This document shows, piece by piece, positions 6,747 to 30,992 of a stretch of DNA of 33,236 nt. The position numbers and the translations under genes were made by a program. Origin of the DNA: Nitrincola sp. A-D6 (GTDB lineage: Bacteria > Pseudomonadota > Gammaproteobacteria > Pseudomonadales > Balneatricaceae); NCBI RefSeq assembly GCF_000764495.1, contig NZ_JRLB01000003.1, forward strand, positions 1 to 33,236, written 5' to 3'. The notes below the pieces were generated by a model. It was not told the origin of the DNA. It was given only the letters and a program-made list of their open reading frames with translations, and ran no database searches. How positions within the stretch are numbered: the stretch's first letter is position 1; every line of letters begins with the position of its first letter.

Positions 6747-9327
6747 CTACAGGCCTTGATAGGGAGGGATGGTGTTACTGTGTGAGGCAAAGGCTTCGAT
6801 GGGCATAGGCCGGGCATATAAAAATCCCTGAAACGAGCGGCAACCGAAGCGCTGCAGTGCATCGCGTTGATCGAGATTTTCAACGCCTTCAGCAATGACA
6901 TTTAACGCCAGGCTGCGGCCCAGATCGATAATGGTTCTGACCACAGCAAGATCACGAGCATCTCTATGCATATCGCGTACAAAAGACTGATCTACTTTCA
7001 AGGTATCCAACGGCAGATTAATGAGTAGATTCAGCGATGAAAAGCCGGTGCCAAAATCATCCAGTGAAAAGCGTATCCCTTCGGCTTTCAGTAGCAGCAT
7101 TTTCTCAATAGTTTGTTCAACGTTATCTATCAGCAGACTTTCGGTTAACTCCAGTTCCAGGCGGTTAGCTGGTGCACCGGTTTGTTTCAGGATACCCAAC
7201 ACATCATCAACAAAACTGTTGTGATGCATCTGCGCAGCACTGATATTGACCGCGATGGTCAAGTGCGCCGTATCGGGATGTTCTGACCAGCTAACTAACT
7301 GTTGACAAGCGGTACGTAAAATCCACCGCCCCAGCGGAAGGATCAGCCAGTCGTCTCAGCCACCGGGATAAAGTCAGCTGGGGATACCAGTAGCTGTTGC
7401 GGTGGTTGCCAGCGGATTAGAGCTTCGACACCGGTCATTTGCCCTTCAGCATAATACTGGGTTGGTAGTAAAGTATAAACTCCTGGTCTTTAAGTGCTCG
7501 ACGCAGGCCAAACTCCAGCTTAGCCCGATGCTCGGCTTTTTGTTGCATGCTGGTATCAAAAAAACGTATCTGATTGCGTCCGACTTTTTTGGCGTCATAA
7601 ATAGCCAGTTCAGCACGTTTAATCAGTTCTTCCGGGTTGTGCTTACTGTCAGAATAGAGCGCTACACCCAGGCTGGCTGAGGTGGTGTAGTCCTGCTCCT
7701 GTATCCGAAATGGACGTTCAAAGGCCTCTATAACCTTGTCCAGAACCTGCTCAACCTGGTTCAGCAGCAAGGTATCATCCGCTGACAGATCTTCCAGTAA
7801 TAACATGAACTCATCACCGCCAAAGCGTGCCAGGGTATCACTGACGCGTACCTGCTTGCTTAGCCGCTCGGCTATGCCTGTGAGTAACTGATCACCGGCC
7901 TGATGCCCCAGGGTGTCGTTCAGCGTGCGAAAGTTGTCCAGATCTATAAGAATAACGGCACCATTACCCTGCTGGTTATGACGACTGGCCAGGCTATGTT
8001 GAAGCCGGTCCATGAGTAATCGTCGGTTCGGCAGTCCGGTGAGTAAATCGTAAAATATCAGTTGATGAACTTCCTTTTTATGACGCTTCTGCTCAGATAT
8101 ATCGGTTGCCAGTCCGCATAAGGCATAGATATTTCCTTGTGCATCAAGCATAGGCACTTTTATTGAAAGAAAAGTGCGTGGTTCGTTTTCACCGGGGAGC
8201 TTGTTTACCTCTTCTTTGACTATACTTTCTCCGTTTATGAGTGCTCTGTCGTCGAGACGGAAAATTTCAGCCGTAGATTCACTATCAAAAAAAGCGGCAT
8301 CGGTTTTACCTATAATCTCCTCTTCAGGGAAGCCAAACAGTTCGCAAACCTTGGGGCTGGCATAAACATAGTGATGCTGAGGATCCTTGATATACACATA
8401 AGCCTGCAGGTTATTGAGTATGGTGGTTAACTTGTCATCACTTACTTGCAACTCGCGCAGGGTGTTCTGCACTTTTTGTCTGAGGTATCTCATAGTTAAC
8501 AATGCCAGCAGCAGCAGGCCAAGTAGCGTAACCAAACCGACCCATACCAGCTTGGGAATAACCTCTACTTCAACGGATGTTTGCCAGTTTTGCAGAATAC
8601 GGTTATAGGGTGAGTCCTGTTCGGTTTTCCATTGTTCCAGCCAGTAATCAATTTTTTCCAACAGTTCGGTGTGTTGATTAATAGAGGTGGCAAAAAACAG
8701 CCGTGCAGGTTGAAACAAAATCGAGGTGGGTTCTAGGTCATAGCCATTTATATGATAGCCACCAAACAGATTATTGGTAGCCAGAGCATCGGCTTTGCCT
8801 TCGGCTAGCAGGTTGAGCGCTGACTGCAGATCGCTAACCCGTATCAGCTCCATCTGTATACCAAACTCTTGATTAATCTGCTCTAAAAAGTCTAGTTGAA
8901 TTGAACCAGCCAGAATGGCTACACGCTTTTGATCAAGGTCCAGTACAGAGTCGATTTCTATGTCAGCATGACGAAACACCTGTGACCAACTGTGCAAAGC
9001 GGGCAGGTGATGAAATGACATCAGTGTCTGCCGTTGCTCACTGAAGGCGACATCCGGCATCAATTCAATCTCACCCTTGTGGAGCAGTTGCAGGCAGGCA
9101 TCCCAGTTACAGGGAACCACCTGGAGTTGCCAGTCTTCACGCTTGGCAATTTCCAAAATCAGTTCCCCTAAAATGCCAGAAGGCTGACCGTCAGGCCCCA
9201 GCATGATTTTAGGGGGATTTTCATACACACCGATACGAACGCTTTGCGTGTCAGCCTGAGCGTTGAGCGTGAGCAACAAAGCCAGTAACAGACAACACTG
9301 CCTGATACCCATTGATATCCGTGTCAT
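6747..9327 (-). pseudogene. Membrane c-di-GMP enzyme, SBP_bac_3-PAS-GGDEF-EAL, with two frameshifts
   Basis: Repaired, this is a protein of about 860 residues. It has a signal peptide (CCLLLALLLTLNAQA, about 11-25), a periplasmic solute-binding domain (SBP_bac_3 type, about 28-245), a membrane helix (VGLVTLLGLLLLALLTM, about 260-278), a PAS domain (about 300-410), a GGDEF domain and an EAL domain. GGDEF is intact (ARFGGDEFML), with an inhibitory RxxD site (RVSD) five residues before it. The EAL domain retains GVEALIRW, NISAAQ, DDFGTGFSSL and EGVE. Both shifts are losses of one base: near 7459-7463 (restoring it gives YYQPQYYAEGQMTGVEAL) and near 7345-7352 (restoring it gives TGLILPLGRWIL). 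It probably links a periplasmic ligand, perhaps an amino acid, to c-di-GMP synthesis or breakdown. As written, the product stops after GGDEF and would lack the phosphodiesterase half. Confidence 0.85.
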
Positions 9328-9390: not shown

Positions 9391-9418
9391 TGTCTTCATG
9401 GGGTTGTCTTCATGGGGT
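9391..9418. repeat. 14-bp tandem duplication beside the transposon end
   Basis: TGTCTTCATGGGGT occurs twice head to tail (9391-9404 and 9405-9418). The second copy overlaps the first bases of the left inverted repeat of the transposase element. It may be a by-product of insertion or of replication slippage. Confidence 0.75.
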
Positions 9419-10208
9419 CAGCCAGCTTGATTGAAAGTTGATATCATTGATTCATTAGGTAAACTGATCTTGGTCTGAATACTACAAGGATGTAACATCA
9501 TGGCTAGACTACCTAGATTGGTACTACCCAATCAGCCTCTGCACATCATGCATCGAGGTAATAATCGTCAAGAAATATTTGAAAATAAAGAGGATGTTTC
9601 GCGTATCCTTTCCGATATTGCGAAGTCGCTCATCAAGGCAGATTGCCAATTACATGCTTATGTCATCATGACAAATCATTTGCATTTACTGGTTACACCA
9701 AAAGACAAACACCAGTTATCTGTGTTTATGCAGTCTATGACCAATCGCTATGTCAGGTACTTTAATTCCAGTCGGGAACGAACAGGCACCATTTGGGAAG
9801 GGCGGTTTAAATCATGCCTTGTAGACAGCGATCATTACCTTTTCACGTTATATAAGTATATCGAGATGAATCCGATAAAAGCCGGAATGGTAATTGACCC
9901 AAAAGAATACCCTTGGTCAAGCTATCACCACAATGCACTTGGAGTTGTGGACGAACTGATTACAGAGCACCCTCTCTATCTGGATTTAGCAGCCACAAAA
10001 GCTGAAAGAGCTGTTCTTTACAAGTCGATGATAAATAACGTTGACCTAAGTAAAGAGAATCAGAATATAACTGAGGCAACTATTCGTGGGGAAGCATTGG
10101 GTGATGTAAACTTCAATGATTGGGTAAGCAAACAAACTGGAAGGCCAGCAAAGCTGACGTCTCATGGGGGAGATAGAAAGAGTGCCAAATACCAAGCTGG
10201 CTGACCCC
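9414..10208 (+). mobile_element. IS200/RAYT-like element bounded by 16-bp inverted repeats
   Basis: GGGGTCAGCCAGCTTG (9414-9429) and its exact reverse complement CAAGCTGGCTGACCCC (10193-10208) enclose one Y1 transposase gene. The right-hand repeat encodes the end of the transposase and its stop codon, so gene and end are integrated. From memory, elements of this kind in gammaproteobacteria often have ends beginning GGGGTCAG. The element is 795 bp and lies between the promoter region of the GGDEF/EAL gene and recC, 27 bp before the proposed recC start. Terminal stem-loops, rather than target duplications, are expected for this family. Confidence 0.78.
9500..10204 (+). CDS. REP-associated tyrosine (Y1/HUH) transposase
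   Basis: This 234-residue single-strand transposase is of the IS200/RAYT type. The N-terminal MARLPRLVLPNQPLHIMHRG and NNRQEIF match the family start. The HUH metal-binding motif appears as TNHLHLL (about residues 58-64), and the catalytic tyrosine is in YKYIEMNPIKAGMV (about 119-132). Ser-His-Gly-Gly-Asp-Arg-Lys-Ser near the C-terminus is also typical as I remember it. The enzyme would nick and join single-stranded DNA at palindromic ends. All key residues are present and the frame is intact, so it could be active. Its AT-rich codon use stands out from the flanking recC and GGDEF genes, which fits recent acquisition. A predicted recC frame overlaps its last codons, but true recC similarity begins only after the element. 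Confidence 0.9.
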   Translation: MARLPRLVLPNQPLHIMHRGNNRQEIFENKEDVSRILSDIAKSLIKADCQLHAYVIMTNHLHLLVTPKDKHQLSVFMQSMTNRYVRYFNSSRERTGTIWEGRFKSCLVDSDHYLFTLYKYIEMNPIKAGMVIDPKEYPWSSYHHNALGVVDELITEHPLYLDLAATKAERAVLYKSMINNVDLSKENQNITEATIRGEALGDVNFNDWVSKQTGRPAKLTSHGGDRKSAKYQAG

Positions 10209-10235
10209 TTGATTCCGGACTGGCCAACTGGGTTG

Positions 10236-13200
10236 ATGGTGATTCAGGGAAACCATCTGGAAGAGCTGCGCAACTTGATGGTGCGCTGGACAAAGGCCTA
10301 TCCATTAGCCCCACTGGAAAACGAAGTGATGCTGGTGCAGAGTAACGGCATCGCACAGTGGTTGAAACTGGCGTTGGCGGCCGATAGCAGTGAAACGCTT
10401 GAGGGGGGCTTAGGCATTGCGGCCGGGTTGCAGGTGATGTTACCCGGGCGGTTTATCTGGCAGGCCTACCGACAAGAGTTTCCACAGTTGCCCAGTGCTT
10501 CACCCTTTGATAAAGCGCCATTGACCTGGCGCTTGTTACGCTTGCTCAGTGATCTGCCAGCCCTGGACACCAGAACAACTGATCCTCAGGCATTACAGCC
10601 GTTGCAGCATTTTCTCGATCAGGACCCCTCCGTGTCACGTACCTGGCAGTTAGCAGCGCGGTTGGCTGATCTTTACGATCAATATCAGGTCTATCGTGCC
10701 GATTGGCTGGATGCCTGGCTGCAAGGTGATGCTGTATTGATCACGGCTGCGGGGGAACGTCAGCCACTGAAAGCGGAGCAGGCCTGGCAGCCGTTGCTTT
10801 GGCAATGGCTAAATGAAGATATTCGACAGGCGCATACGGAGGCTGATTTTCTCAGTTATGCCAGTCGTTCCAGCGTTCATCAACAGTTTTGTCAGCAACT
10901 CAGCGAGGCGGGGAACAGTCAGCGACTGAGTGGTTTTCCACGGCGAATCATTGTGTTCGGTATTTCGTCCTTGCCGCGGCAAACATTGGAAGTACTTGAA
11001 GTGCTGTCACAGTTTTCCCAGGTGATGCTGTTTGTCTGTAACCCCAGTCAGCATTACTGGGGCGATCTGATCGAAGGACGGGAACTATTCAAAAAAGCCT
11101 ATCAGCGTAATCCGGAGCGCCGGGTGCCGGATAATCTCGACGAAGATCAGCTGCATCTGCATGGCCATCCCTTATTGGCAGCCTGGGGACGTCAGGGCGT
11201 GACTATCTGAGACTGCCAGATGAGCGCGATCAACCGCCAACCTATCAGCAGCACTTTGAACGCATCGATCTGTTTGCCTCCCCGGGCAGTGAAACGCTGT
11301 TGCAGCAACTGCAGGACGATATACTGGAACTGCGCAGTCTGAATGAGCGCCAGGCGATGCACAGCCAGGTGGAGGAGCGGGATCGCAGCCTGGGCTTTAT
11401 GGTTGCGCATAGTCCGCAACGTGAGGTGGAGATACTCCAGGATCAGCTACTAGCTGAGTTTGAGGCAGCACAACAGGCGGGCCATGTGTTGAACCCCCGC
11501 GATATTCTGGTCATGGTGCCGGATATCCAGGTGTATGCCGCCCATATCGATGCGGTATTCGGTAAACTGGATCGTGACGATCCGCGTTATCTGCCATTTC
11601 ATATTGCCGATCAGGGCAACGCCACAAAGCGCCTTTGCTGATTGCACTGGAAAGTCTGCTGCATCTGCCTGAGTCCCGTTTCAGTGTAACGGAACTGCTG
11701 GATCTATTGGATGTGCCCGCCCTACGTGCCCGATTTGAACTGGATGAGGTTGATCTGCTCAGCCTGAAACGCTGGATACAGGGCGCCAATATTCGCTGGG
11801 GGCTGGATGCAGCGCAGCGTGCGGCGCTGGAGCTGCCTGAGGGTGTGTCGGGCAATACCTGGCGTTTTGGCTTGCAGCGTATGCTGCTGGGGTATGCCAG
11901 TGGCGAAGGATCTGCCTGGCAGGGCACCGAGCCCTATGCTGAGGTGGCGGGTTTGGAAGCGGCCAGGCTGGGGCCTCTGGTGGTGCTACTGGATCAACTG
12001 GAACGTGCCTGGCAGACGCTGCAGTTACCCACCTCTGCCGGTGAATGGGCGACACGTTTGCAGCAGTTGCTGCAGGATTTCTTTTTGCCTCAGTCGGAGC
12101 TGGATCAGGCGTTGCTGCTTAGAGTTGAACAGCAGTTAACCCAGTGGCTCGAGGCTGTCGAATTGGCTGAAGCCAGTGAGCTGCCATTAACGCTGGATGT
12201 GGTGCGTGAAGAGCTGTTGTCCGGTCTGGATCAGCCGGGACTGAGCCAGACCTTTCTGGCCGGGTCGGTCAATTTCGCCACGCTGATGCCGATGCGTGCC
12301 ATTCCGTTTCGGCAAGTCTGGCTGCTGGGGATGAACGATGGTGCTTACCCGCGTGCTGTCAGACCGGTGGATTTTGATCTGATGGCACAGGATTACCGTC
12401 CTGGTGACCGTTCCCGGCGTGAAGATGATCGCTACCTGTTTCTGGAAGCCTTGTTAGCCGCACGTGAAAAGCTGGTGGTCAGTTGGGTTGGTCGTAGTGT
12501 TCGCGATAATTCCGTGCGCCCGCCGTCTGTGCTGGTTGGGCAGCTGCGTGATCATCTTCAGGCGGGTTGGCAAGGTCAGAGTGACGATCTGCTCAGCGAG
12601 TTGACCACTGAACACCCGTTACAACCCTTCAGTCAACGCTATTTTGCCCAGGACGCTGTTTCACCGGCACCGTTCAGTTATGCCTCTGAATGGTTGGCAG
12701 TGCATCAGCCGATCAGCCAGGTGCAATCACCGTCAGGACTAGTGGCCTGGCAACCGGAATCCGCCTTGTCTCTAGCCCAGTTAGTGCAGTTGATGAAGCA
12801 GCCGATCGATAGTTTCTATGCACTGCGTCTGCAAGTGCCGCGAAGTGAATCCATTCAGGTGTTACGCGATACGGAAAGCTTTGCTTTGGATGGGTTGGAG
12901 GTCTGGAGTTTACGCGACCGGTTGCTGCAGTCAGCGGTTTTACCTGCGCTAGATGAAGCCGATTTTTTCCAGCGTCTTGCCGATGAAGTAAAGCGCATTC
13001 AGCGGCAAGGCTTGCTGGTCGAGGGCAGTCATGGTCAGTTGCAGGGGCAGAAATTGTGTCAGGGGCTGGACGCGGTCTACACCGACTGGCTAGCCGAGCG
13101 CACAGCATTCAGTGAACGGTTGGAGAGCCAGCCGTTGGTGTATTCAGCGCAGAGTGCATGGGGAGTGTTGGGCGTTGAGGCAACGCTTGAACCCCTGTAT

Positions 13201-13716
13201 CAACACCCTGAAACAGGGGAAATCACCCTGCTGTTGTTGCAGAGCGCAGGTTTGATCAAACAGGGCCGGTCACGCAAATGGCACAATCATCTGCGCGGCT
13301 GGCTGATGCATCTGCTGGCTAACCAGAACGGCCTTGAACTCAGCACCCGGATTATTACGCCTGAGGGTAAAATTCGCTTTGCGCCTCTGACGTCTGAGCA
13401 GGCAAAAGCCTGTCTGGATCGTCTGCTACAGGCGGCACATGCAACACTGCAAGCCCCCACACCCTTGAGCCTGGAGACCGCCATTGCCTGGTTGGCCAAT
13501 CGGGAAGATGCGGCTGAATCTGCTTTCCCTGAAGGAAAGCTGCTGGCCAAACTGCAGGAAGCGCTGGATAAAAGCGCCGAGCATAGCCGTTTCTTTCATC
13601 AGCATTGTGCTGATCTTGAGCAGCTCTGGTCAGAGGGTCGTTTTGCTCAACATGTGCAGGCGCTTTATGGTGATTTTCATCAGGCGGTGGCATCGCAGAA
13701 GGAAGGCCGCTCATGA
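10236..13716 (+). pseudogene. recC: RecC subunit of exonuclease V, two frameshifts
   Basis: RecC is the Chi-recognising scaffold of the RecBCD helicase-nuclease in double-strand-break repair. The N-terminus fits the family (GNHLEELRNLMVRW, NEVMLVQSNGIAQWLKLALA, LPGRFIWQAYRQEF). The first frame runs to 11210. Restoring one base near 11195-11199 gives WGRQGRDYLRLPDERDQP in the second frame. A second lost base near 11618-11634 leads into LLIALESLLHLPESRFSV and the rest, including RQVWLLGMNDGAYPR and RRYLFLEALL-type sequence (DDRYLFLEALLAARE). Repaired length is about 1160 residues, close to family size. I chose ATG 10236 because upstream residues come from the transposon; no good ribosome-binding site precedes it. 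The stop overlaps recB as ATGA. Whether the shifts are real is open. Confidence 0.88.
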
Positions 13717-16700
13717 ATAATCGCATCAATCGTCTGGACCCTTTAAGCTTTCCACTGCAGGGCAAGGCGCTGATAGAGGCCAGTGCGGGTACCGGCAAAA
13801 CCTTTACCCTGGCGCTGCTGTATCTGCGTCTGGTGATTCAGCATGGTGGTGATCAGGCCTATAGGCGCCCGCTGCTGCCACCGGAAATACTGGTAGTCAC
13901 CTTTACCAATGCGGCCACAGCGGAACTACGTGAGCGTATTCGTGCGCGCCTGGTGGAAGCGGCAGGGGTTTTTCAGGGTGAGGCGTCAGACGATACCTTG
14001 TTGCAGGCGTTGATGCAGCAGTTGCCTGCCGATCAGCACCTGCGTGCGGCACGGCAATTGACACTGGCCGCGCAGTGGATGGATGAGTCGGCCATCTCTA
14101 CCATTCATGCCTGGTGTTATCGCATGCTCAAAGAGCACGCCTTCGACAGCGGCAGTGCATTTGATCCGCAACTGGAAACCAGTGAGCAGGCCTGGCAACA
14201 GCAGGCCAGTGAAGATTACTGGCGCTGTGCCTACAGCCAGTTGCCTGTGGATGAACTGGCCCTGGTGGTCGACTGCTGGGCATCACCCGATCTGTTGCTG
14301 AAACAAGTCAAACCCTGCCTGGACAAGTTGGCTTATCTGGCCAATCCGCCAGGATCAGCCTTGCAGCTGATTCAGCGTTACCAACAACAGCGCTCCGCTC
14401 AGCTGGATGCATTGAAAGCCGAATGGCGGGCGCAGGATTATATCGGTCAGCTACAGCGGGTGTTTGATGAAGCCGCTAAACAGAAAGCCTTTCAGGCGAA
14501 GAAGCTCAATACTGGCCATCGTGCGGGGTACTGAACAAGCTGAGCAACTGGCTGGCACAGGCCTCGCTGGAGGATCCGGGTATCTTCGCGGCTAAAAGCT
14601 GGCGGGTGATGTCATCTGCAGGGGTTAGCGAAATCTGGGTGGATGCCCAACAGGCCCCCGTCAACCACCCAGCCTGTGTGGCTCTGTCACAGTTGCAACA
14701 GGCACTGGCGGACTTGCCGGATCTTCAACCTGAGCTGTTATGCCATGCGGCTCACTGGATTGCTGCGCGGATCGAGAAGGTTAAGCAACAGTCAAACAGC
14801 CTGAGCCAGAATGACTTGCTGTTACGTCTCGACCAGGCTTTGGCTTCCTCCAGGGGGAGGCGCTGGCTACGGCGATTCGCCGGCAATTTCCGGTGGCACT
14901 GGTGGACGAGTTTCAGGATACCGATCCGGTGCAGTACCGTATTTTCCGGCGTATTTATCAGCAAAGTCCTGATAATACGCCGGTCGGCTTCTTTATGATC
15001 GGTGATCCCAAACAGGCGATCTACGCTTTCCGCGGGGCCGATATCCATACCTATCTGCAAGCGCGTCAGGACAGTGAAGGGCAGCATTACACCCTGGATA
15101 CCAATTACCGTTCATCGGCTGCATTGATCGAGTCGGTCAATGAGGTGTTCAGTCTGGCCGATCAACGTGCCCAGGGCGCGTTTATGTTCAAGACCGAAGA
15201 GTACAATCCGCTACCTTTTTTACCGGTGAAGGCTGGTAAGGCTGATATGCCAGGATTAATGCTGGAGGGAGAACAGGCACCCGCACTGCAAGGCTGGTTG
15301 GTTGAACAAACCGATGACAAGCTCAATAAAGGTGATGCCCGCGATAAACTGGCACTGGCGACGGCTGCTAAAATTGCCGGGTTACTCACCCAGGGACAGC
15401 AGGGGAAAGCCTTGTTACCTTTGGCCGAATCGGGCGGTTGGCGCGGGGTGCAGCCATCGGATTGCGCGGTATTGGTGAATAATCTTAATGAAGCTAATCT
15501 GGTCAGACAGGCTCTGCAGCAGTTGGGGGTTGCCAGTGTCTACCTTTCGGATCGTTCCAGTGTATTCCAGACCTGGATTGCCAGCGAGTTGTTGCAATTG
15601 CTGCGTGCGGTGTCGGACCCTTTGAATGAGAAACGCATACGTACTGCACTGGCCAGTCCGTTATTGCGCCCCGATATCGCCGCCCTGGAGCGGCTGAATC
15701 AGGATGAGCTTTACTGGGAAAGCCAGTCGGGTCAGTTTATGACTTATCATCAGATCTGGCAGCGCCAGGGTATTCTGCCGTTGATCTATCGCCTTATACA
15801 GGATTTCAATATTGCCGAGAGTGCCGGTCAGCGGCCTCAGGGGGAGCGCGAGTTAACTGACTTGCTGCACCTGGGCGAACTCCTGCATCAGGCGGCTGAT
15901 ACGCTGGATGGTGAGCAGGCATTGATACGTTATCTGGAAGAGTCGATTCTGGAGCCGGATGATCAGAGTGAAGCGCAGCAGTTGCGTCTGGAAACGGATG
16001 AGCAATTGGTACGGGTGGTCACCATCCATAAATCCAAAGGCCTGGAGTATCCTCTGGTGTTCTTGCCGTTTATCAGCGATAGCCGCCAAGCCAAGGCACA
16101 GGATACGCTACTGGTCACTCACAACGCCGAGCAGCAGGTTGAAGTGCATCTGCGTGCCAATTCTGAAAACCTGGTGCAGGCGGACACAGAGCGTCTGGCC
16201 GAAGATCTACGCAAGCTCTATGTGGCCTTGACCCGTGCCCGTTTTGTCAACTGGATAGGCCTGGCCGAAACCGATAGCTTTGCATCTTCGGCACTGGCTT
16301 ATGTGCTGGGCGCCTCATCCGGCGCTTTGGCTGAACCCTTACAGCAGCTACAACATCTGAGCCTGCAACCTCTGCCCGACGCGCTACCCGATGCCTGGCA
16401 GCCGCCGAGCAAAAATCTGCTGTTAAGTGCCAGGTCTGCACCGCGCCTGACGCATGAATCCTGGTGGATTGCCAGTTATTCCGCACTGAAGCATGGCACC
16501 AGACAGGTCAGTGAGACCGCCTGGCAGGAAACCCTGCTGGAAACGCAGGATTCAGAGACTGACGCGCTCGACAGGCTGTCACTCCCGGACGCTCTGGATC
16601 TGCATAGCTTAGCCAAAGGCAGTCAGATAGGGACGTTTTTGCATAGTCTGCTGGAGTGGGCTGCGGGGCTGACATGGATCGATGCGCAGGGTGAACGACA

Positions 16701-17402
16701 ACAAGGCTTTGCGGGGGTATTGGAACCGTCGTTACAGGAAACCTGTCGGGACTATCTGATCCAACGTTGCCAGCAGCGACAACTGCAGTCCTGGAGCGAA
16801 CCACTATTGCACTGGCTGCAGCAGTTTATACGTCAGGAGTGGCAGTTTCCGCAGCAGGCTGTATCGGCAGCCTCGCCTTTGTGCCTGGCCGCGCTGTCAC
16901 CCCGGCAATACAGTGTCGAACTGGAATTCTGGTTTGCCAGCCATCAGGTGAGTACCTTGAAACTGGATCAGTGGGTTCAACAGCGTACCCTGGCAGGTCT
17001 TGAGCGACCACCGTTGGCGGCCAATCGCTTGAATGGCATGCTCAAAGGTTTTATTGATCTGGTGGTTGAACATCAAGGGCGCTACTACATTATAGACTGG
17101 AAATCCAATTGGTTAGGTGTGAATAATCAAGCTTATTCTGACGATATGATGCGTCAGACCCTGCTGGCTAAACGCTATGATCTTCAATACCTTCTGTACC
17201 TGTTAGCCCTGCATCGGCAGCTGCGCTTGCGTTTGCCTGATTATGATTACGACCGTCATATAGCGGGGCCGCCTATGTGTTTTTGCGTGGTTACCGTGCT
17301 GACTCGCAGGGGGTGTTTTTCGATAAACCGGATCGTCAGGTGATTGAGGGACTGGATCGGCTGTTTGCCGGTCAGGCACTAACCGATGAGGTACTGGCAT
17401 GA
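13713..17402 (+). pseudogene. recB: RecB helicase-nuclease subunit of exonuclease V, three frameshifts
   Basis: RecB is the 3'-5' UvrD-family helicase and the sole nuclease of RecBCD. Walker A is ASAGTGKTFTLALLYLRL (about residues 23-40), followed by VVTFTNAATAELRERI. Walker B is LVDEFQDTDPVQY. The C-terminal nuclease retains GFIDLVVEH and the IIDWKSNW catalytic core. Three net -1 shifts break it: near 14504-14507 (repair gives KKLQYWPSCGVLNKL), near 14835-14841 (repair gives LDQAFGFLQGEALATA), and near 17264-17271 (repair gives IAGAAYVFLRGYRADSQG). Repaired length is about 1230 residues, normal to slightly long. All helicase and nuclease motifs survive, and no in-frame stop other than those caused by the shifts was noticed. 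The TGA overlaps the recD ATG, so the genes are translationally coupled. Confidence 0.9.
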
Positions 17403-19424
17403 AAGCGGATATCGAAGCGTCATTCACCTGGCTGCATCTGTTCCATCAGCAAGGAAAGCTCCGGGCACTGGATCTGGCGCTGTGTCGCTATATTGCCGAG
17501 GCTGCACCAGAGTCAGATTCCTATGTGTTGTTGGCGATTGCCATGACCAGTGAACGTAACGGCCATGGTGATGTGTGCTGGATCTGATCGGTGCCCTGGC
17601 CAATCTGGAGGTGACAGCTGGGTCTGATGCTCAGGCATTGGCCGGTGTCTTGCAAACACTTAACTCCCTGAGCCCGGATGAATGGTGGGCGCGTTTGAGT
17701 CGCTCAGCCGCAATTCAGCCGCTAGCGATGGATGGGCGGGATGAACAGCCAGACAAAACCAGTGCTCCTTTGGTGTTAGCGGGTTCACCGCAACGTCCCA
17801 TAGTCTATCTGCGCCGTTACTGGAACTATGAGCAGCAGGTGCGTGAGGCACTGATGCAGCGCATCGATCAGTGCTACGACTTGCCTGAAGACGAAATGGC
17901 AGCCTTGTTGAGTAGTTTGTTTCCACCAGCGACCGATGCAGGGCAACCGGATTGGCAGAAAATTGCCTGCGCCTTGTCGGCACGGCGAGGGTTTGCGGTG
18001 ATTACCGGAGGTCCGGGAACCGGAAAAACCACCACGGTGGTCAGGTTGTTGGCGCTATTGCAGGCACTGGCATTGCAACAGGGCCAGACGGTGTTGCGTA
18101 TTGCGCTGGCAGCCCCGACGGGCAAGGCCGCTGCTCGCCTTAACGCATCCATTGCCGCCCAGGTGGCAAGTCTGCCCCTGGCTGATTTAAGTCATGATCC
18201 TGAGCAACTGGCGGCGGCTATTCCGACAGAGGTGACCACACTGCATCGACTGTTAGGGCCGTTGCCGGACAGTCGTCGCTTTCGTCATCACCGGGCCCAG
18301 CCATTGCCGGTCGACTTGGTGGTGGTGGATGAGGCCTCCATGGTTGACCTGGAGATGCTCGCGGCACTGGTCGATGCACTTAAACCCGGTGCACGTCTGA
18401 TTCTGCTGGGAGACAAGGATCAGTTAGCTTCTGTTGAAGCTGGCGCTATTTTGGGTGATTTGTGTCAGCAGGCTTCACTGGGGCGCTATCAGGCCGACAC
18501 GGCTCAGTGGTTGGCGCGTGTCACCGGGTATGCGCTTGATGCCTCTTATCTTAGTGAGGCAGGGCGCCCCCTGGATCAGGCAATTACCATGTTGCGCCAG
18601 AGTCATCGCTTCAGCGAACAGGGTGGTATAGGAGCCCTGGCGCGTCTGGTCAATGATGGAGAATTGTATGGTCAAGCGGTGACTGATCGCCTGGCGGCTT
18701 TGGAGCAACTATTTGCTGAGCAGAATGATCAGATCGATCGCCTCAGAGTAAGTCATGCGGCGGATGCATCACTGGCACAACTGATTATTCAGGGTTATCA
18801 AGGTTATCTGCAACAGATTCAACAGAGTCGACCCGCTTTAGATGCCGGACAGGCGGCTCATGATCACTGGGCCGCTCAGGTACTGGAGTCCCACACCAGC
18901 TTTCAATTGTTGTGCGCGGTGCGCCAGGGTCCCTGGGGTGTTGAGCAGTTGAATCAGTGGATCAGCGGAATTCTGGCAGGGACCGGATTGCTTAAAGGCA
19001 GTGATGCACTCTGGTATGAAGGACGGCCGGTGCTGATTACCCGCAACGACTACAGCTTGCGTTTAATGAATGGCGATATAGGTATTGCGTTAATGCGCCC
19101 TGTGGAGCAGCCAGACGGCACTATCACTTCCGCATTACGGGTCGTTTTTCCGGCCGCCGATGGTAGCGTGCGCTGGATCATGCCGAGTCGCCTGCAGGCA
19201 TTGGAAAGCGTTTTTGCCATGACCGTGCATAAATCACAGGCTCTGAATTCACTCACACCGCCCTGGTATTACCGGATCAACCCAACCCTGTACTGACCCA
19301 GGAGCTAATCTACACCGGCATCACCCGCTCCCGCGAGCGTTTCACCCTGATCTACAGCCGTGACAGCCTGCTCAGACATGCCCTGGAAAAACGCGTAACC
19401 CGCCTCAGCGGCCTTCACCTCTAA
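17399..19424 (+). pseudogene. recD: RecD helicase subunit of exonuclease V, two frameshifts
   Basis: RecD is the 5'-3' SF1B helicase of RecBCD. The first 60 residues lie in one frame (ASFTWLHLFHQQGKLRALDL). One lost base near 17575-17579 moves to the next frame (CLDLIGALANLEV). That frame holds Walker A (ITGGPGTGKTTTVVRLLALL), APTGKAAARL, and Walker B (VVVDEASMVDLEMLAAL). A second lost base near 19238-19241 interrupts the motif VI region; repair gives TVHKSQGSEFTHTALVLP and then ELIYTGITRSRERFTLIY, ending at TAA 19422-19424. Repaired length is about 675 residues, longer than the E. coli protein but within family range. As written, the product would lose motif VI and the arginine finger, and so would be inactive if the sequence is correct. 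Confidence 0.9.
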
Positions 19425-19465: not shown

Positions 19466-22400
19466 TTAGGAGGCCAGGGTGGTTAGGAGGGCTTCGACTT
19501 GTTGGAAGCGTTCTTCGATGCTTTCCATAGGCAGGGTGAAGCGGAGTCCGGAGGGGCCGTCCAGTTTGAAGATGCGCGGTTGGCGCTGGATCATCTGGAT
19601 AAGCTTGATCGGTTCAACTTTGGGTTCAGCGTCAAATTCGATTTTACCGCCTTTATTGCCGACATCCAGCTTCTGGATGCCCAACACTTCGGCTTGCAGC
19701 TTCAGCTCGGTCAGGCGTAACAAATTTTTACTGGCTTCAGGGAGCAGGCCGAAGCGGTCAATCATTTCTACCTGGATCTCGCGTAAGGCATTGGCATCGC
19801 GCGCATTGGAGATACGTTTGTACAGCATCAGGCGGTTATGTACATCCGGCAGGTAATCATCCGGAATCAGTGCTGACAGGTGCAGATTGACTTCACAGCC
19901 GTGGTTTAGCGGTTTGTCCAGATTCGGTGTTTTGCCATCGCGGATCGCTTCAACGGCTTGCTCGAGCATTTCCATATACAGACCAAAACCTATCGTTTGC
20001 ATCTGACCGCTTTGATCTTCACCCAGCAGCTCACCAGCACCGCGGATTTCCAGGTCATGCGTAGCAAGCGTAAAGCCTGCGCCCAGTGTGGAGGCTTCAG
20101 AAATGGCTTCAAGACGTTTCTGCGCATCATCGGTCATGTTGCGCTTATCTGGTGTTAGCAGATAAGCGTAGGCCTGGTGGTGCGAGCGGCCGACGCGGCC
20201 ACGTAACTGATGCAGCTGCGCCAGGCCGAATTTATCTGCACGCTCAATAATAATGGTGTTGGCGTTGGGGATGTCTATGCCGGTTTCGATGATGGTGGTA
20301 CACACAAGCACATTGAAGCGTTTGTGATAAAAGTCGCTCATCACCTGTTCCAGCTCACGTTCCCGCATCTGTCCATGTCCTGCCGCAACACGGGCTTCCG
20401 GCACCAGAGCGTCAATTTCAGCAACCACTTTATCGATGGTTTTGACTTCGTTATGCAGGAAATAGACCTGTCCACCACGTAACAGCTCACGCAGTATGGC
20501 TTCTTTTAACAATGCGGGCTCTGATTGGCGGACAAAGGTTTTTACCGATAGACGCCGTGCCGGTGGGGTTGCGATGATGGATAAGTCACGCATTCCCGAC
20601 ATGGCCATGTTCAGTGTGCGCGGGATGGGTGTGGCCGTCATGGTCAGAATATCGACTTCTGCTCGCAGCGCTTTGATTTTTTCTTTCTGTTGAACACCGA
20701 AACGGTGTTCTTCATCAATAATCAGTAAGCCAAGGTTTTTGTAGGTCAGGCTGCCTTGCAATAATTTGTGTGTGCCGATCAGAATATCCACCTGACCGTC
20801 ACTGAGCTGTTGGGCAATAACCTGTTGCTGTTTGGCGCTGCGAAAGCGTGAGATGAGCTCTACATTGATTGGCCAGTCAGCAAAACGGTCACGGAAATTG
20901 TCGAAATGCTGTTGAGCCAGCAGTGTAGTGGGCACCAAAACTGCCACTTGTTTACCCGCTTGCGCGGCAATAAAGGCCGCACGCATGGCCACTTCGGTTT
21001 TACCAAAACCGACATCACCACATACCAGCCGGTCCATAGGTTTGGCTGAACGCATGTCGCGGATCACAGCCTCTATAGCACTGGCCTGATCCGGAGTTTC
21101 TTCAAAAGGGAAGGTTGCTGCAAAACGTTCGAAATCGGTCTCAGGAAATTCAAATGAAAAGCCTTCGCGAGCATTACGGCGGGCATAGATATCCAACAGC
21201 TCAGCGGCAGTATCACGGACTTTTTCAGCAGCCTTGCGACGTGCCTTACTCCATTGTTCAGTACCCAGACGGTGCAGCGGCGCCTGTTCATCAGTAGCGC
21301 CTGAGTAGCGACTGATGAGGTGTAGTGACGAAACCGGGACATAGAGTTTCGCTTCGTTGGCGTATTCCAGCATTAAAAACTCATTGATCTGCCCATCAAC
21401 GGTGATGCTTTGCAGGCCACGGTAGCGGCCGACACCATGGTCAATATGTACCACGGGTGCATTCGTGGTCAGCTCGGACAGGTGGCGGATAACCTGATCG
21501 GATTGTTCTTTCTCACGCTGGCGGCGACGGCGCTGAAAGATCTGTCGACCAAATAACTGCGTTTCCGTAACCAGATGTAACTCACCCGGAATGGATATAC
21601 CCTGGTCCAGTGCAAAAACACTGATGCCGAGTCGTACCGGCTTGGCTTGAAAGGCTTGCCAGTTGTCAAAGTCTGTTGCTTTCAGATGAGTGCGTCGCAA
21701 AAGCTCCTGTAGCGCTTCACGCCGGCCAGGTGATTCGGCACAGATTAAAAAATGCGCCTTGCTGTCACTTTCCATTAACTGCTTGAGTTTATACAGAGGT
21801 TCATCACTGCCGGGCTCAGCCGTCAGGTCAGCAGGCGCAGTACAGGGTAGGTTATCACGCCCAGGTTTGCGTTGTTCTGTGTCGGTTGTTACGCGAATAC
21901 GTGGGTAGTGCTTGAGACGGCCAAGCAGCTCATCCGCTGAGAGGTACAGTGCATCGGGGCTCAATATAGGCCGCTGGGTATCAAAGTTGCGTTCCTGATA
22001 GCGGTTTTGCACTTCGTCAGCGAAATGTTTAGCCGCATCACTGACACCTGCCTGCTCAACGATTAATGTTTGCTCGGGTAGGTAATCAAACAGCGTTGCA
22101 AGCTGATCGAAAAACAGCGGTAAATAGTATTCTATACCCGAGGGAGCAATACCCTCAGAAACATCGCGGTAAACCGGGCAGCGGTTAAAATCCACTTCAA
22201 AGACTTCGCGCCAACGCTGCTTAAAATGGCGTATAGAATCCTGGTTAAACGGAAATTCTCGCGCAGGTAACAGGCGAATGCGTTCCAACTGATCGATGGA
22301 AAGCTGGGTTTCCGGATCAAAGGTGCGCAGCGTTTCAATTTCATCATCAAACAGATCGATACGGAAGGGGAGGTCACTACCCATCGGGAAAATATCGATA

Positions 22401-22912
22401 ATGGCACCACGAATGGCAAACTCGCCATGTTCATACACGGTATTGACCGCCTGGTAACCCGCATGAACCAGTTGTTGGCGTATGGTATCTGGATTGAACT
22501 CCTGTCCCTTATCCAGGCTCAGGCTGTTTCCGGTGATGAAAGTGGTGGGGGCTATGCGCTGCATCAGCGTGGATGCCGAGACAATCAAAATGCCACGCTT
22601 CATGGCCGGTAAGCGATACAGGGTTTCTATACGCTGGGAAATAATATCCTGATGCGGTGAAAAAGAGTCATAGGGCAGGGTTTCCCAATCAGGAACCAGC
22701 AGTATTTCATTGTCATCCTGACTAAAAAAACGGGTTTCCTGGCGGATACGCAGTGCGGTTTCGTTATCCTTGCACACAAGTACCACCAGCCCTTGTTGCT
22801 GCCGGGTGAGTAGTTGTTGCAGTACCAAGCCGGTGCTGCAGCCAGTGACTTGCCCAACACGTTTAATGTCACCTGTCGAGTGGGGTAACGTAAAGGAAAA
22901 TGGGGCCAGCAA
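19466..22912 (-). CDS. mfd: Transcription-repair coupling factor Mfd
   Basis: This 1148-residue protein is the full-length DNA translocase that removes stalled RNA polymerase and recruits UvrA. It has the UvrB-like N-terminal module, with DWETLPYDSFSPHQDIISQR at about 75-95. The RNA-polymerase interaction domain follows (VVHIDHGVGRYRGLQSI, about 485-501). The helicase core has Walker A VCGDVGFGKTEVAMRAA, the DEEH box LLIIDEEHRFGVQQKEK, TMTATPIPRTLNM and motif VI (QLRGRVGRSHHQAYAYLL). The C-terminal TRCF domain is present to residue 1148. The start is TTG (22910-22912 on the plus strand), supported by AAAGGAG six bases upstream; no nearby in-frame ATG fits better. Unlike the recBCD genes next to it, this 3.4-kb gene has no frameshift. 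It is transcribed divergently from gap. Confidence 0.97.
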   Translation of the reverse strand: MLAPFSFTLPHSTGDIKRVGQVTGCSTGLVLQQLLTRQQQGLVVLVCKDNETALRIRQETRFFSQDDNEILLVPDWETLPYDSFSPHQDIISQRIETLYRLPAMKRGILIVSASTLMQRIAPTTFITGNSLSLDKGQEFNPDTIRQQLVHAGYQAVNTVYEHGEFAIRGAIIDIFPMGSDLPFRIDLFDDEIETLRTFDPETQLSIDQLERIRLLPAREFPFNQDSIRHFKQRWREVFEVDFNRCPVYRDVSEGIAPSGIEYYLPLFFDQLATLFDYLPEQTLIVEQAGVSDAAKHFADEVQNRYQERNFDTQRPILSPDALYLSADELLGRLKHYPRIRVTTDTEQRKPGRDNLPCTAPADLTAEPGSDEPLYKLKQLMESDSKAHFLICAESPGRREALQELLRRTHLKATDFDNWQAFQAKPVRLGISVFALDQGISIPGELHLVTETQLFGRQIFQRRRRQREKEQSDQVIRHLSELTTNAPVVHIDHGVGRYRGLQSITVDGQINEFLMLEYANEAKLYVPVSSLHLISRYSGATDEQAPLHRLGTEQWSKARRKAAEKVRDTAAELLDIYARRNAREGFSFEFPETDFERFAATFPFEETPDQASAIEAVIRDMRSAKPMDRLVCGDVGFGKTEVAMRAAFIAAQAGKQVAVLVPTTLLAQQHFDNFRDRFADWPINVELISRFRSAKQQQVIAQQLSDGQVDILIGTHKLLQGSLTYKNLGLLIIDEEHRFGVQQKEKIKALRAEVDILTMTATPIPRTLNMAMSGMRDLSIIATPPARRLSVKTFVRQSEPALLKEAILRELLRGGQVYFLHNEVKTIDKVVAEIDALVPEARVAAGHGQMRERELEQVMSDFYHKRFNVLVCTTIIETGIDIPNANTIIIERADKFGLAQLHQLRGRVGRSHHQAYAYLLTPDKRNMTDDAQKRLEAISEASTLGAGFTLATHDLEIRGAGELLGEDQSGQMQTIGFGLYMEMLEQAVEAIRDGKTPNLDKPLNHGCEVNLHLSALIPDDYLPDVHNRLMLYKRISNARDANALREIQVEMIDRFGLLPEASKNLLRLTELKLQAEVLGIQKLDVGNKGGKIEFDAEPKVEPIKLIQMIQRQPRIFKLDGPSGLRFTLPMESIEERFQQVEALLTTLAS

Positions 22913-23108
22913 GGTAAGCTCCTTTAATTCAGCGGCTGAGAGTCCAAATCGGCTATTCTAACCAATGCTGTAAAAAAACACAGTGAATCATGAGATTTAC
23001 TCCCAAAATTCACCTATTCTTGTAAGTTCGGACCAAAGTATATCGAATCGAATTTGATCCGGATGGCCTAAACAGGGATAATGCGCGCACGCAAATGGAG
23101 CCATTACA
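22913..23108. promoter_or_regulatory. Divergent mfd/gap intergenic region
   Basis: This 196-bp region separates divergently transcribed genes and must hold both start sites. The mfd Shine-Dalgarno (CTCCTTT at 22919-22925 on the plus strand) and the gap one (GGAG a few bases before ATG 23109) are clear. An internal pair of TCGAAT repeats (about 23042-23053) is visible. No match to a -35/-10 pair or to the HexR operator was strong enough to claim. Confidence 0.45.
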
Positions 23109-24566
23109 ATGTCGGAGCAAGCTGTGAGCCAAGAACTGATTTTAGCGGACTGGAATGCGCGTGAGTCTATTGCTGAAGCAATGATTCCGTTGGTCGGTAG
23201 ACTTTACCGTGAACGTAATGTCGAGATCTCTATCTATGGTCGTGTCATCGTTAAGCGTTCGGTGATCGATGTGATCAAAGCGCACCGCTTTGTAAGACAG
23301 GTAGAGGATGAAGAGGTGTCAGTGATCGATACCTTTCCGGTATTGGAAGTAGTCAGTGGCCTGGATCTTCACAATGCACATGTGGATATCGCCAAACTGG
23401 CAGTAAACTTCCGGACTGAAGCAAAAGGGCGTTCACTGGAGCAATTTGTTGCTGATGAGCTAGCCGATGCTGTGGGCCCAATCGATGATCGTAAACCGGT
23501 GGATGTTGTTCTTTACGGTTTCGGTCGTATCGGTCGTATCCTTACGCGGCAGTTAGTTGACCGTGCGGGTATTGGTCATAGTATGCGCCTGCGTGCGATC
23601 GTTGTACGTAAGGGTAGCGCAGAAAATGACCTGGAAAAGCGCGCCAGTTTATTACGTCGTGATTCTGTGCATGGCTCATTTAAAGGCACGATACAGGTAG
23701 ACGAAGAGAACCAGTCTATTATTGCCAATGGTGTGGCGATTAAAGTAATTTTTGCCAGTCAACCAGAAGACATAGACTATACCCAGTACGGTATCAATGA
23801 TGCACTGGTTATCGATAACACGGGCATGTTCCGTGATGCTGAAGGCATGTCTCGCCACCTGAAAGCCAAGGGTGCGGCCAGGGTGATGTTGACGGCACCA
23901 GGTAAAAACATGAAAAACATTGTCATGGGTGTCAATCATTTAGATATCACCGCTGAAGATACTATTCTTTCAGCGGCATCCTGTACCACTAACGCGATTG
24001 TGCCGGTGTTAAAAGCGCTGCAGGATAAGTTTGGTATTGAAAATGGCCATGTAGAGACAGTGCACTCCTACACCAATGATCAGAATCTGATTGATAATTA
24101 CCACAAAGGAAGTCGCCGTGGTCGTGCGGCGGCACTGAATATGGTTATTACTGAAACAGGTGCGGCCAAGGCGGTTGCCAAGGCGTTGCCTGAGCTGGAA
24201 GGTAAGCTGACCGGTAACGCGATTCGTGTGCCAACACCCAATGTGTCCATGGCAATTTTGAACCTGAACCTAAAAGCTGGAACCACTAAAGAAGAGCTGA
24301 ATGACTACCTGCGCTTTATTGCACTGCATTCTGATTTGCAGAAGCAGGTGGATTACAGTATTTCAGCTGAAGCGGTTTCATCTGATTTTGTTGGTTCAAG
24401 AGCCGCGGGCGTCGTTGATGCGCTGGCAACCATTGCTGAAGGTAATCGTTGTGTGCTGTATGTCTGGTACGATAATGAATACGGCTATAGCTGCCAGGTT
24501 ATACGTATGGCGCAACAAATTTGCAAGACTACGCTGACACCCTATCCGTTAGAAACAAATAAGTAA
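23109..24566 (+). CDS. gap: Glyceraldehyde-3-phosphate dehydrogenase, long form with N-terminal extension
   Basis: This 485-residue GAPDH interconverts glyceraldehyde-3-phosphate and 1,3-bisphosphoglycerate using NAD(P). The catalytic part begins only at about residue 130, with the nucleotide-binding GFGRIGR at 137-143. The nucleophilic cysteine is C292 in SAASCTTNAIVP, and the partner histidine is in VETVHSYTNDQNLIDNYHKG. WYDNEYGYSCQV near the end is a family hallmark. The first ~125 residues are an extra domain absent from ordinary ~335-residue GAPDH. The same long form stands between mfd and the nqr operon in Pseudomonas, as I recall, so this is an orthologue in conserved position. In that group it is thought to work mainly in gluconeogenesis. 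A strong terminator follows 33 bp after the stop, so it is transcribed alone. Confidence 0.95.
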   Translation: MSEQAVSQELILADWNARESIAEAMIPLVGRLYRERNVEISIYGRVIVKRSVIDVIKAHRFVRQVEDEEVSVIDTFPVLEVVSGLDLHNAHVDIAKLAVNFRTEAKGRSLEQFVADELADAVGPIDDRKPVDVVLYGFGRIGRILTRQLVDRAGIGHSMRLRAIVVRKGSAENDLEKRASLLRRDSVHGSFKGTIQVDEENQSIIANGVAIKVIFASQPEDIDYTQYGINDALVIDNTGMFRDAEGMSRHLKAKGAARVMLTAPGKNMKNIVMGVNHLDITAEDTILSAASCTTNAIVPVLKALQDKFGIENGHVETVHSYTNDQNLIDNYHKGSRRGRAAALNMVITETGAAKAVAKALPELEGKLTGNAIRVPTPNVSMAILNLNLKAGTTKEELNDYLRFIALHSDLQKQVDYSISAEAVSSDFVGSRAAGVVDALATIAEGNRCVLYVWYDNEYGYSCQVIRMAQQICKTTLTPYPLETNK

Positions 24567-24599
24567 CAGATAACGCATATTGAAAGACGTAAATTTTAT

Positions 24600-24630
24600 A
24601 AAAATGCCGCAGTAATGCGGCATTTTTTTT
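24600..24630 (+). terminator. Rho-independent terminator of gap
   Basis: AAAATGCCGCA and TGCGGCATTTT form a perfect 11-bp stem with loop GTAA, followed by further T (eight in the run). It starts 33 bp after the gap stop and separates gap from the nqr operon. Confidence 0.93.
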
Positions 24631-26277
<1,647 letters not shown>

Positions 26278-26286
26278 GAGACAGGC

Positions 26287-27495
26287 ATGAGTATTAGAGC
26301 TGTTTTAGATAAAATGGAGCCGCATTTCCACAAAGGCGGCAAATATGAAAACTGGTATGCTCTGTTTGAAGCAGTGGATACCATTTTCTATACCCCTGGC
26401 AAGGTAACCCGTGCCGGTGCACATGTGCGTGATGGTGTTGACCTGAAGCGTATGATGATCCTGGTATGGATGTGTACTTTTCCTGCTGTTTTCTTTGGTT
26501 TGTACAGTGTAGGCCTGCATGCCAATACGGCTATGGCACAGTTGGGTATCACCGAAGCTGAAGGTTGGAGAGGTTCTATCCTGAGTGCTTTGACCAGTTA
26601 TAACGCCAACAGCCTGTGGGATAACATTATCCACGGCGCGGTTTACTGGTTACCCATCTATGCTGTGACCTTTATCGTGGGTGGCTTCTGGGAAGTCCTG
26701 TTTGCCATGAAGCGTGGCCATGAAGTCAACGAAGGCTTCTTTGTGACGTCGATCCTCTTTTCACTGATTTTACCGGCTACTATTCCGTTGTGGCAGGTTG
26801 CACTGGGTATTACCTTTGGTGTGGTCATAGGTAAAGAGGTGTTTGGTGGTACGGGTAAGAACTTCCTGAATCCCGCCTTGACTGGTCGTGCCTTCCTGTA
26901 TTTTGCTTATCCGGCACAGATATCCGGGGATGCGATCTGGACGGCAGTAGATGGCTTTTCCGGTGCGACCCCTCTGGGTTTAGCCGCCATGGGTGGTGTA
27001 CAGGAAATCATTGGCGCAGGTGTTACCTGGACCAGTGCATTTGTTGGCACAATACAAGGCTCAGTTGGTGAGGTGTCAACACTGGCAATCATCATAGGTG
27101 GTGCCATTATTATGTATGCCAAGATTGCTGCCTGGCGGATTGTCGCGGGTGTGACGGTCGGTGTTATTGGTACAACACTGCTATTCAATATTATCGGTTC
27201 GGAAACCAATCCGATGTTTGCTGTGCCTTTCTGGTGGCATTTCGTCATTGGTGGTTTGGCATTTGGTATGTTCTTTATGGCAACGGATCCGGTATCGGCT
27301 TCGATGACCAATACGGGTAAGTGGGTATTCGGTGCGTTGATCGGTGTGATGACCATTCTGATCCGTGTTGTGAACCCGGCCTTCCCGGAAGGCATCATGC
27401 TGGCGATCCTGTTCGCCAACCTGTTTGCGCCGCTAATTGACAACTTTGTTGTGCAGGCGAATATCAAACGGAGGATGTTACGTAATGTCGTCTAA
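26287..27495 (+). CDS. nqrB: Na+-NQR subunit B
   Basis: NqrB is a 402-residue multi-helix membrane subunit that carries covalently bound FMN and riboflavin and forms much of the Na+ path. The FMN-attachment motif is in [16 protein letters not shown], with the acceptor threonine at about residue 228. Several hydrophobic helices are evident, such as VLFAMKRGH-flanked segments and [28 protein letters not shown] precedes the ATG closely. The last 11 bases overlap the nqrC start, indicating translational coupling. Attachment of FMN to this threonine requires the flavin transferase ApbE, whose gene is not in this locus. Confidence 0.97.
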
Positions 27496-28333
27496 TAAAG
27501 ATTCTATCGGAAAAACAGTTACTGTAGCCTTGGTGCTGTGTGTAGTCTGTTCTGTTGTTGTATCGGCAGCGGCTGTCATGTTGAAGCCTATGCAGCAGTA
27601 CAATATGGATCAGGATCGTAAATCCAATATTCTTCGTGCTGCGGGCATTACTGATCCGAGTAAATCGGTTGATGAGCTGTTTGCACAGATTACAACTCGC
27701 ACGGTCGATCTCGAAACCGGAGAGTTTACGGATGAATTTGTTCCTGCGGCAGAAGACTTCCGTCGTGCGGCAGGTGATCCTGCTTTATCGGAGTCGCTTG
27801 ATCGTCGTGAAGATATTGCTTCTATCAAGCGCCAGCCCAATATCATGCCAGTGTATATAGTAGAAGCCGATGATGGTTCTATCGATACATTGATATTGCC
27901 GGTTTATGGTTATGGTTTGTGGTCTACTCTGTATGGCTTTCTGGCATTGGAAGGTGACCTGAATACGGTTGCCGGGCTGGGATTCTATGAGCATGCAGAG
28001 ACCCCAGGTCTGGGTGGCGAAATCGATAATCCGGACTGGAAAGCCTCCTGGGTTGGCAAAGAGATTTATGCAGGTGAATCTACAAGCGAGCCAGCACTGC
28101 GTGTGATCAAGGGTGCTGTGGATCCTTCACAATCCGGGTCTGAACATCGTATAGATGGTCTGGCAGGGGCAACCCTGACATCCAACGGGGTCACTAATAT
28201 GATCCGTTTCTGGATGGGTGAGTCGGGTTTTGGTCCGCTTATTGCCAATCTGCGTGAAGCGAGTGCAACAGGTACGGCCGAATTGGTTGAACCTGATGCC
28301 GATGCTGATGCGCTTGAAGTGGATGAGGTGTAA
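27485..28333 (+). CDS. nqrC: Na+-NQR subunit C
   Basis: NqrC is a 282-residue subunit with one N-terminal membrane helix ([22 protein letters not shown], about residues 12-33) and a periplasmic FMN domain. The flavinylation site is in [13 protein letters not shown], with the acceptor threonine at 230; alanine stands where many homologues have serine. I chose ATG 27485 over the earlier frame opening at 27437 because [15 protein letters not shown] matches the family start and GGAGG lies upstream. The C-terminal ~20 residues after [10 protein letters not shown] are very acidic ([12 protein letters not shown]) and look like an appended tail. It lies 2 bp before nqrD. Confidence 0.96.
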
Positions 28334-28335
28334 TC

Positions 28336-28995
28336 ATGTCGAATACTAAAGAGATTATTTTAACGCCAATCTTCAAGAATAACCCTATTGCACTTCAGGT
28401 GTTGGGAGTTTGTTCTGCATTGGCGGTGACAACCAATATGAACAATGCAGTGGTTATGACACTGGCTGTTATGTCAGTAACAGCCTTTTCTAACTTGTTC
28501 ATTTCGCTGATCAGATCACAAATACCCAGCAACATCCGTATCATCGTACAGATGACGATAATCGCTTCTCTGGTAATTGTGGTTGACCAGGTACTGAAAG
28601 CCGTCGCTTATGATGTGTCAAAGCAGCTGTCGGTGTTTGTTGGTCTGATCATCACTAACTGCATCGTGCTGGGTCGTGCAGAAGCCTTTGCCATGAAAAA
28701 TCCACCTTTGCCAAGCTTCATTGATGGCCTGGGCAATGGTTTAGGCTATGGCTTTGTCTTGCTGTTTGTAGCATTCTTCCGTGAATTACTCGGTGCTGGT
28801 AGCTTGTTTGGCTACGAGATTCTGCCGTTAGTTACCAATGGTGGCTGGTATAACAGCAACGGCTTGTTCCTGTTACCTCCAAGTGCATTCTTCCTGATTG
28901 GTATTCTGATCTGGGTGATACGCACCTGGAAACCTGAGCAGGTTGAGCATCCTGATTTCGTTATTGCACCTAACACCAGTAAGGAGGCTGTGTAA
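28336..28995 (+). CDS. nqrD: Na+-NQR subunit D
   Basis: This 219-residue membrane subunit is homologous to RnfE/NqrE. The two conserved cysteines that hold the intramembrane iron centre together with NqrE are C26 ([12 protein letters not shown]) and C109 ([15 protein letters not shown]). About six hydrophobic helices are visible. Conserved [12 protein letters not shown] and [12 protein letters not shown] confirm the family. It lies 2 bp after nqrC and 3 bp before nqrE, tightly within the operon. Confidence 0.97.
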
Positions 28996-28998
28996 GTC

Positions 28999-29607
28999 AT
29001 GGAACAATATATCAGTCTTGCTATTCGGGCCATATTTGTTGAAAACATGGCATTGGCTTTCTTTCTGGGTATGTGTACTTTTCTGGCTATTTCCAAAAAG
29101 GTACAGACGGCTCTGGGCTTAGGTATCGCGGTGGTAGTGGTATTGGTTATCACTACACCCATCAACAACCTGATCTACAATTATCTCCTGCGTGAAGGCG
29201 CCTTGAGCTGGGCAGGTTATCCCGATGTCGACCTGAGTTTTCTGGGTTTTATCTCTTATATCGGTATCATCGCGGCGGTGGTGCAGATACTGGAGATGTT
29301 CCTGGATAAATATGTGCCGGTTCTATACAACGCACTGGGTGTTTTCCTGCCGCTGATTACAGTGAACTGTGCCATTTTGGGTGCTGCGCTGTTTATGGTT
29401 GAACGTGACTATACTTTTGGCGAAAGCATTGTTTATGGTGCAGGCGCAGGTATTGGTTGGGCTCTGGCGATTACAGCGCTTGCCGGTATTCGTGAAAAGC
29501 TTAAGTATAGTGATGTACCAGCCGGTCTGCGTGGTCTGGGTATCACTTTCATTATTGTGGGGTTGATGTCTCTTGGCTTTATGTCGTTCTCCGGCGTATC
29601 GCTTTAA
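28999..29607 (+). CDS. nqrE: Na+-NQR subunit E
   Basis: This 202-residue membrane subunit is homologous to NqrD and inserted in the opposite topology. The iron-binding cysteines are C26 ([12 protein letters not shown]) and C124 ([13 protein letters not shown]). Start [20 protein letters not shown] is the standard family N-terminus. It runs on from nqrD, and a 36-bp gap leads to nqrF. With NqrD it forms the sodium- and electron-conducting core around the iron centre supplied through NqrM. Confidence 0.97.
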
Positions 29608-29643
29608 TCCACTGGGACAACAATAGAAGGGTGGAATAAGCTG

Positions 29644-30870: not shown

Positions 30871-30898
30871 TCCTAGCCAATGCCCCCCTAAGTTCGTT

Positions 30899-30936: not shown

Positions 30937-30992
30937 AGCTAACCTGACTCTATTCAGTTTGCTAATGGCCTGTTTAGTCTTTGGAGACTGTT

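Follow-up and report, generated by a model that had tools for sequence, protein, structure and literature searches.

Seven frame breaks in the recBCD operon of a Nitrincola draft genome are almost certainly consensus errors, probably from Ion Torrent reads

The RecBCD (exodeoxyribonuclease V) operon of gammaproteobacteria is represented in the genus Nitrincola by the genomes G010 and N. lacisaponensis 4CA, which share the order recC-recB-recD, with mfd lying downstream in the opposite orientation. The same arrangement is found in the stretch of DNA analysed here (the window), which is an entire contig (C41, 33,236 bp) of a Nitrincola genome of 3,794,254 bp in 117 contigs: recC, recB and recD are co-directional, mfd comes next on the opposite strand, and both the order and the orthology of the genes are kept within the genus. 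Among the genomes compared, G010 is the nearest relative as judged from RecB (88% identical), and it belongs to the same genus. The domain content of the G010 RecBCD is shared by the window, with 86–89% amino acid identity by codon, and the sole difference from the Nitrincola operon consists of seven one-base deficits, which we attribute to the assembly. The locus is almost certainly an ordinary, conserved Nitrincola RecBCD operon, whose seven frame breaks almost certainly arose as consensus errors in a draft made on the Ion Torrent Personal Genome Machine (PGM). One base would have been dropped from the PGM consensus at each of the seven sites; all contigs sampled show such drops, at roughly one in 3 kb of coding sequence. 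A search of the available literature for Nitrincola together with RecBCD found no paper.

All three genes lie on the forward strand. The recC gene (10164–13716), encoding the gamma subunit, carries the Pfam domains Exonuc_V_gamma (PF04257) and RecC_C (PF17946) on two separate fragments; an alternative start is a later ATG near position 10236, which had been chosen in an earlier, sequence-only reading of this DNA. The beta subunit, a helicase and nuclease, is encoded by recB (13713–17402), with UvrD-helicase, UvrD_C and PDDEXK_1 recognized on two fragments; RecB of G010, 89% identical by codon, matches it in four pieces. The alpha subunit, a helicase, is encoded by recD (17399–19424), with AAA_19 and AAA_30. 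The subunit-specific domains of RecBCD are therefore all present on separate fragments, in agreement with the earlier statement that the helicase and nuclease parts are kept. Stretches that we take to be the Walker A, DEFQDTD and DWKSN motifs can be read directly in the window sequence. In the deposited sequence, the reading frames of the operon are interrupted seven times.

In a gapped DNA alignment of the window with the syntenic G010 locus (one block, 2 to 24566, at 84.9% identity), exactly seven uncompensated indels were located within recBCD, and at each of them the window is one base short. Two fall in recC (near 11198 and 11618), three in recB (near 14525, 14849 and 17262) and two in recD (near 17578 and 19239), all positions being approximate, as the aligner may shift a gap by some bases. 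The sequence-only reading had listed seven frameshifts, distributed in this way among the three genes and each repaired by one added base; their number, places and sizes are confirmed by the alignment, and every break is a one-base deficit relative to an intact G010 operon. The same reading had noticed no stop codons beyond those caused by the shifts, and this also stands. When read codon by codon in the G010 frame, recB and recD contain no stops. In recC there is a single apparent stop, at 10400, which lies within a compensated gap cluster where the frame of the window itself is open and which, as judged from the alignment, is an artefact.

The G010 genome reads recC and recB each as one open frame, and recD as one 675-codon frame once two stretches are joined. 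Indeed, G010, N. lacisaponensis and a further genome, G005, each read all three genes in a single frame. This bears on the idea that the sites are recoded, with ribosomal frameshifting yielding full-length proteins. Such recoding would account for the retention of all catalytic parts and for the resumption of conserved sequence past each break; however, the relatives manage with one frame per gene, and genes of the tested genome that have no relation to recBCD are broken in the same way (see below). We give this explanation next to no credence.

The extent of the breaks was assessed on a sample of four of the 117 contigs (134 kb in all), which comprised the window, C13 and C45 in full, and 40 kb from the start of C14, each compared with G010. 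The latter three contigs were picked because they carry rpoC, alaS with mutS, and dnaE, and not for their quality. After a coverage filter, 42 net frame breaks were counted in 124,691 coding bases, or 0.34 per kb. Of these, 38 are isolated deletions of a single base and two are isolated single-base insertions. By contig, the counts in aligned coding sequence were 11 (31.2 kb), 9 (24.2 kb), 10 (33.3 kb) and 12 (36.5 kb), which corresponds to a similar rate of 0.30–0.37 per kb on all four. The single-base indels are thus spread over the sampled contigs irrespective of gene function, as would be expected of PGM errors, and the rate presumably extends to the unsampled contigs. The sequence-only reading had offered, as its second branch, a local problem of sequence quality; the problem of quality is upheld, but it is not local, given the similar rate on four contigs and the breaks in essential genes described below.

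In the gap census the 42 events of the tested genome fall in 31 of 106 coding sequences, and a control comparison of N. lacisaponensis with G010 gave 14 net events in 13 of 84 coding sequences (102,214 aligned coding bases). Only 4 of these 14 were lone one-base deletions, and several others were clusters of multiple gaps. More weight was therefore put on a test of open reading frame length, in which well-aligned genes of at least 150 codons were scored as shortened when their open length was below 90% of that in G010. By this test 23 of 95 genes are shortened in the tested genome, whereas N. lacisaponensis, which forms the more distant pair with G010, has only 3 of 72 (Fisher P = 0.0004). Two of the three control genes and one of the 23 test genes correspond to one stretch of G010 beside an EF-Tu gene, with a 255-codon frame that may be no gene.

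The products of dnaE, alaS, pyrH, tsf and rpoB are essential to the cell, and all five genes are broken in the draft. Three breaks in dnaE leave 689 codons open, compared with 1187 in N. lacisaponensis and 1186 in G010, and two breaks in alaS leave 542 codons, compared with 880 in both relatives. The tsf gene has two breaks and lies in three pieces at one locus, while pyrH, with two breaks by count, lies in two pieces at one locus; rpoB has one break, and more than 90% of its length remains open. For alaS, dnaE, tsf and pyrH the genome contains one matching locus each. Because no viable cell could carry frameshifts in every one of these genes, the breaks in them must be artefacts, and the breaks of this draft are not confined to dispensable genes as they would be among real pseudogenes. 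The genes for an EF-Tu and an aspartate kinase, birA and mutS are also broken. The breaks in recBCD look like the remaining breaks, and nothing was found that sets them apart.

The state of mutS (672 open codons, against 878 and 891 in the relatives), together with the wide spread of the breaks, might instead point to a real, genome-wide decay, for instance in a mutator strain with a broken mutS. The mutator reading is rejected since essential genes are broken as well: alaS, dnaE, tsf and pyrH, each at a single locus, could not have been lost. Moreover, selection on the substitutions in recBCD is still purifying, and genuine decay of the genome is accordingly an extremely improbable account.

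A real and very recent loss of RecBCD, with double-strand breaks repaired in another way, had been the first branch of the sequence-only reading. It would explain why each of three functionally linked genes holds several breaks. In the ratio of non-synonymous to synonymous substitutions (dN/dS), the window compared with G010 gave 0.091 for recC, 0.076 for recB and 0.100 for recD; for N. lacisaponensis compared with G010 the respective values were 0.077, 0.094 and 0.075, although dS exceeds 1.3 there and is close to saturation. As judged from these substitutions, the window recBCD still shows the mark of purifying selection, and neither the relaxed selection nor the extra stops of a real pseudogene were found (dN/dS 0.076–0.100; no accumulated stops apart from the artefact at 10400). 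Because dN/dS would not yet reflect a loss as recent as this, the ratios on their own are compatible with it. What argues against such a loss is that like breaks occur at a similar rate on all four sampled contigs, and that breaks of the same type in dnaE, alaS, pyrH, tsf and rpoB would not be viable if real. The proposal of a RecBCD loss thus finds no support, and we regard it as very unlikely.

The sequence-only reading had also suggested a search for addAB, adnAB or a second recBCD. The searches made here covered recC, RecB, AddA and AddB. The genome yielded neither a further recC match nor a further locus specific to RecB, and a search for AddB, confined to the alphaproteobacterial model, gave no match; these negatives again speak against a loss of RecBCD. 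Contigs 15 and 74 each carry a long UvrD-like frame, considered as a candidate for AddA and rejected, as the scores of the scanned parts of these frames are far below the AddA cut-offs. It is very probable, and the simplest view, that the organism relies on a functional RecBCD like those of its relatives.

Ion Torrent sequencing would provide a source for errors of this type. Nitrincola sp. A-D6 was isolated from a salt flat in Chile and is resistant to arsenic, and its published draft comprises 117 contigs, 3,795,776 bp and 4,401 protein genes at a G+C content of 49.96%; it was obtained from single-end libraries on the Ion Torrent PGM and assembled at 40x with MIRA and CAP3 (PMC4239347). From the agreement in genus, contig number, size and G+C content (50.5% in the sampled contigs), we infer that the genome analysed here is this draft. 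A search of the analysed genome for 16S sequence found none. According to Bragg et al. (2013; PMC3623719), high-frequency indels of the PGM are mostly single-base, occur about once per 1000–2000 bp and cause frameshifts in assembly; only 29% are in homopolymers, and the commonest kinds are A/T insertions and C/G deletions, with under-calling of longer runs adding deletions. The breaks described here resemble the indels of that paper (PMC3623719) in being single-base, in surviving into the consensus, in lying mostly outside long homopolymers and in shifting the frame. Their rate of 0.34 per kb of coding sequence is of the same order as the rate given there. The two differ in that lone deletions prevail here (38 against 2 insertions), whereas both kinds are reported there (PMC3623719).

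Several observations weigh against consensus errors of the PGM. The published draft exceeds the analysed genome by 1,522 bases. Runs of at least three bases hold 12 of the 38 one-base deletions, compared with 14.6% of coding bases (P = 0.006), which is a modest enrichment (P = 0.018 and 0.045 with wider context), and C/G deletions (23 of 38, P = 0.17) show a non-significant trend relative to the C/G bias reported for the PGM. Homopolymers were rejected as the sole cause, 17 of the 38 sites showing no run at the aligned base. Since the homopolymer enrichment is modest and the C/G excess non-significant, the claim made here is one of PGM consensus errors and not of purely homopolymer errors. In addition, rpoC is whole, the control provided by the gap census is noisy, and the breaks are unevenly spread within the window contig, the last 13.8 kb of which is free of them. 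Finally, the 35 breaks outside recBCD predict 2.8 in its 9.3 kb, where seven are observed (P = 0.025, uncorrected), an excess that a loss of RecBCD would also fit. However, when all 42 breaks were placed at random, some 9.3 kb stretch with at least seven of them arose in 85% of simulations (scan P = 0.85), and the excess in recBCD needs no separate explanation. It would likewise fit a mixed situation in which at least one of the seven breaks is real among errors and the strain is truly without RecBCD, but we hold the chance of this to be very small. On the reading favoured here, each of the seven individual sites would be an error.

The seven breaks are almost certainly not a biological feature, and the problem of quality spans the sampled draft. 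About one in four of the sampled genes of at least 150 codons (23 of 95) is cut short, and this is a warning to users of the genome: to infer gene loss from this draft, RecBCD or MutS included, would be wrong, and split genes have probably inflated the number of genes published for its 3.8 Mb (4,401). More generally, single-copy essential genes can settle claims of a recently broken gene without recourse to reads.

Outside recBCD, the window has breaks relative to G010 in three other genes. Near 286 there is one base extra, in a gene cut by the contig edge. A forward-strand gene at 563–1599 (345 codons in G010) is one base short near 968, and a reverse-strand gene at 6750–9327, with SBP_bac_3, PAS and GGDEF domains on a 630-codon fragment, is one base short near both 7347 and 7460. 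From 19466 to 33236, which covers mfd and the genes that follow, no net coding break relative to G010 was seen over 13.8 kb; among the genes after mfd are some whose sequences resemble a Na+-NQR operon and a soluble transhydrogenase. Elsewhere in the genome, contig C33 carries a Rep/UvrD-like helicase with 340 open codons, compared with 676 for a similar match in G010. In another draft of the genus (G006; 140 contigs, 87% complete), the recB match on contig C69 holds one TGA and one TAG and recC is in pieces; this is possibly another error-rich draft.

At the start of recC, a gene resembling a REP (repetitive extragenic palindrome)-associated tyrosine transposase lies at 9500–10204, with Pfam Y1_Tnp above its cut-off and NCBIfam NF047646 scoring 79.2 bits, where the cut-off is 80. 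It is flanked by 20-nt inverted repeats (9410–9429 and 10193–10212) that are 95% complementary. The right repeat arm and the stop codon of the transposase gene fall within the first codons of the recC frame, and for this reason the element may supply the start of recC. The same arrangement of transposase and recC is present in G010, and N. lacisaponensis has no alignable sequence there. With at most one mismatch, the repeat core AAGCTGGCTGACCCC occurs 11 times in the genome of the window, 13 times in G010, once in N. lacisaponensis and not at all in G005, while a reversed control of the core occurs in none of the four genomes. The core resembles a small family of REP-type repeats linked to the transposase.

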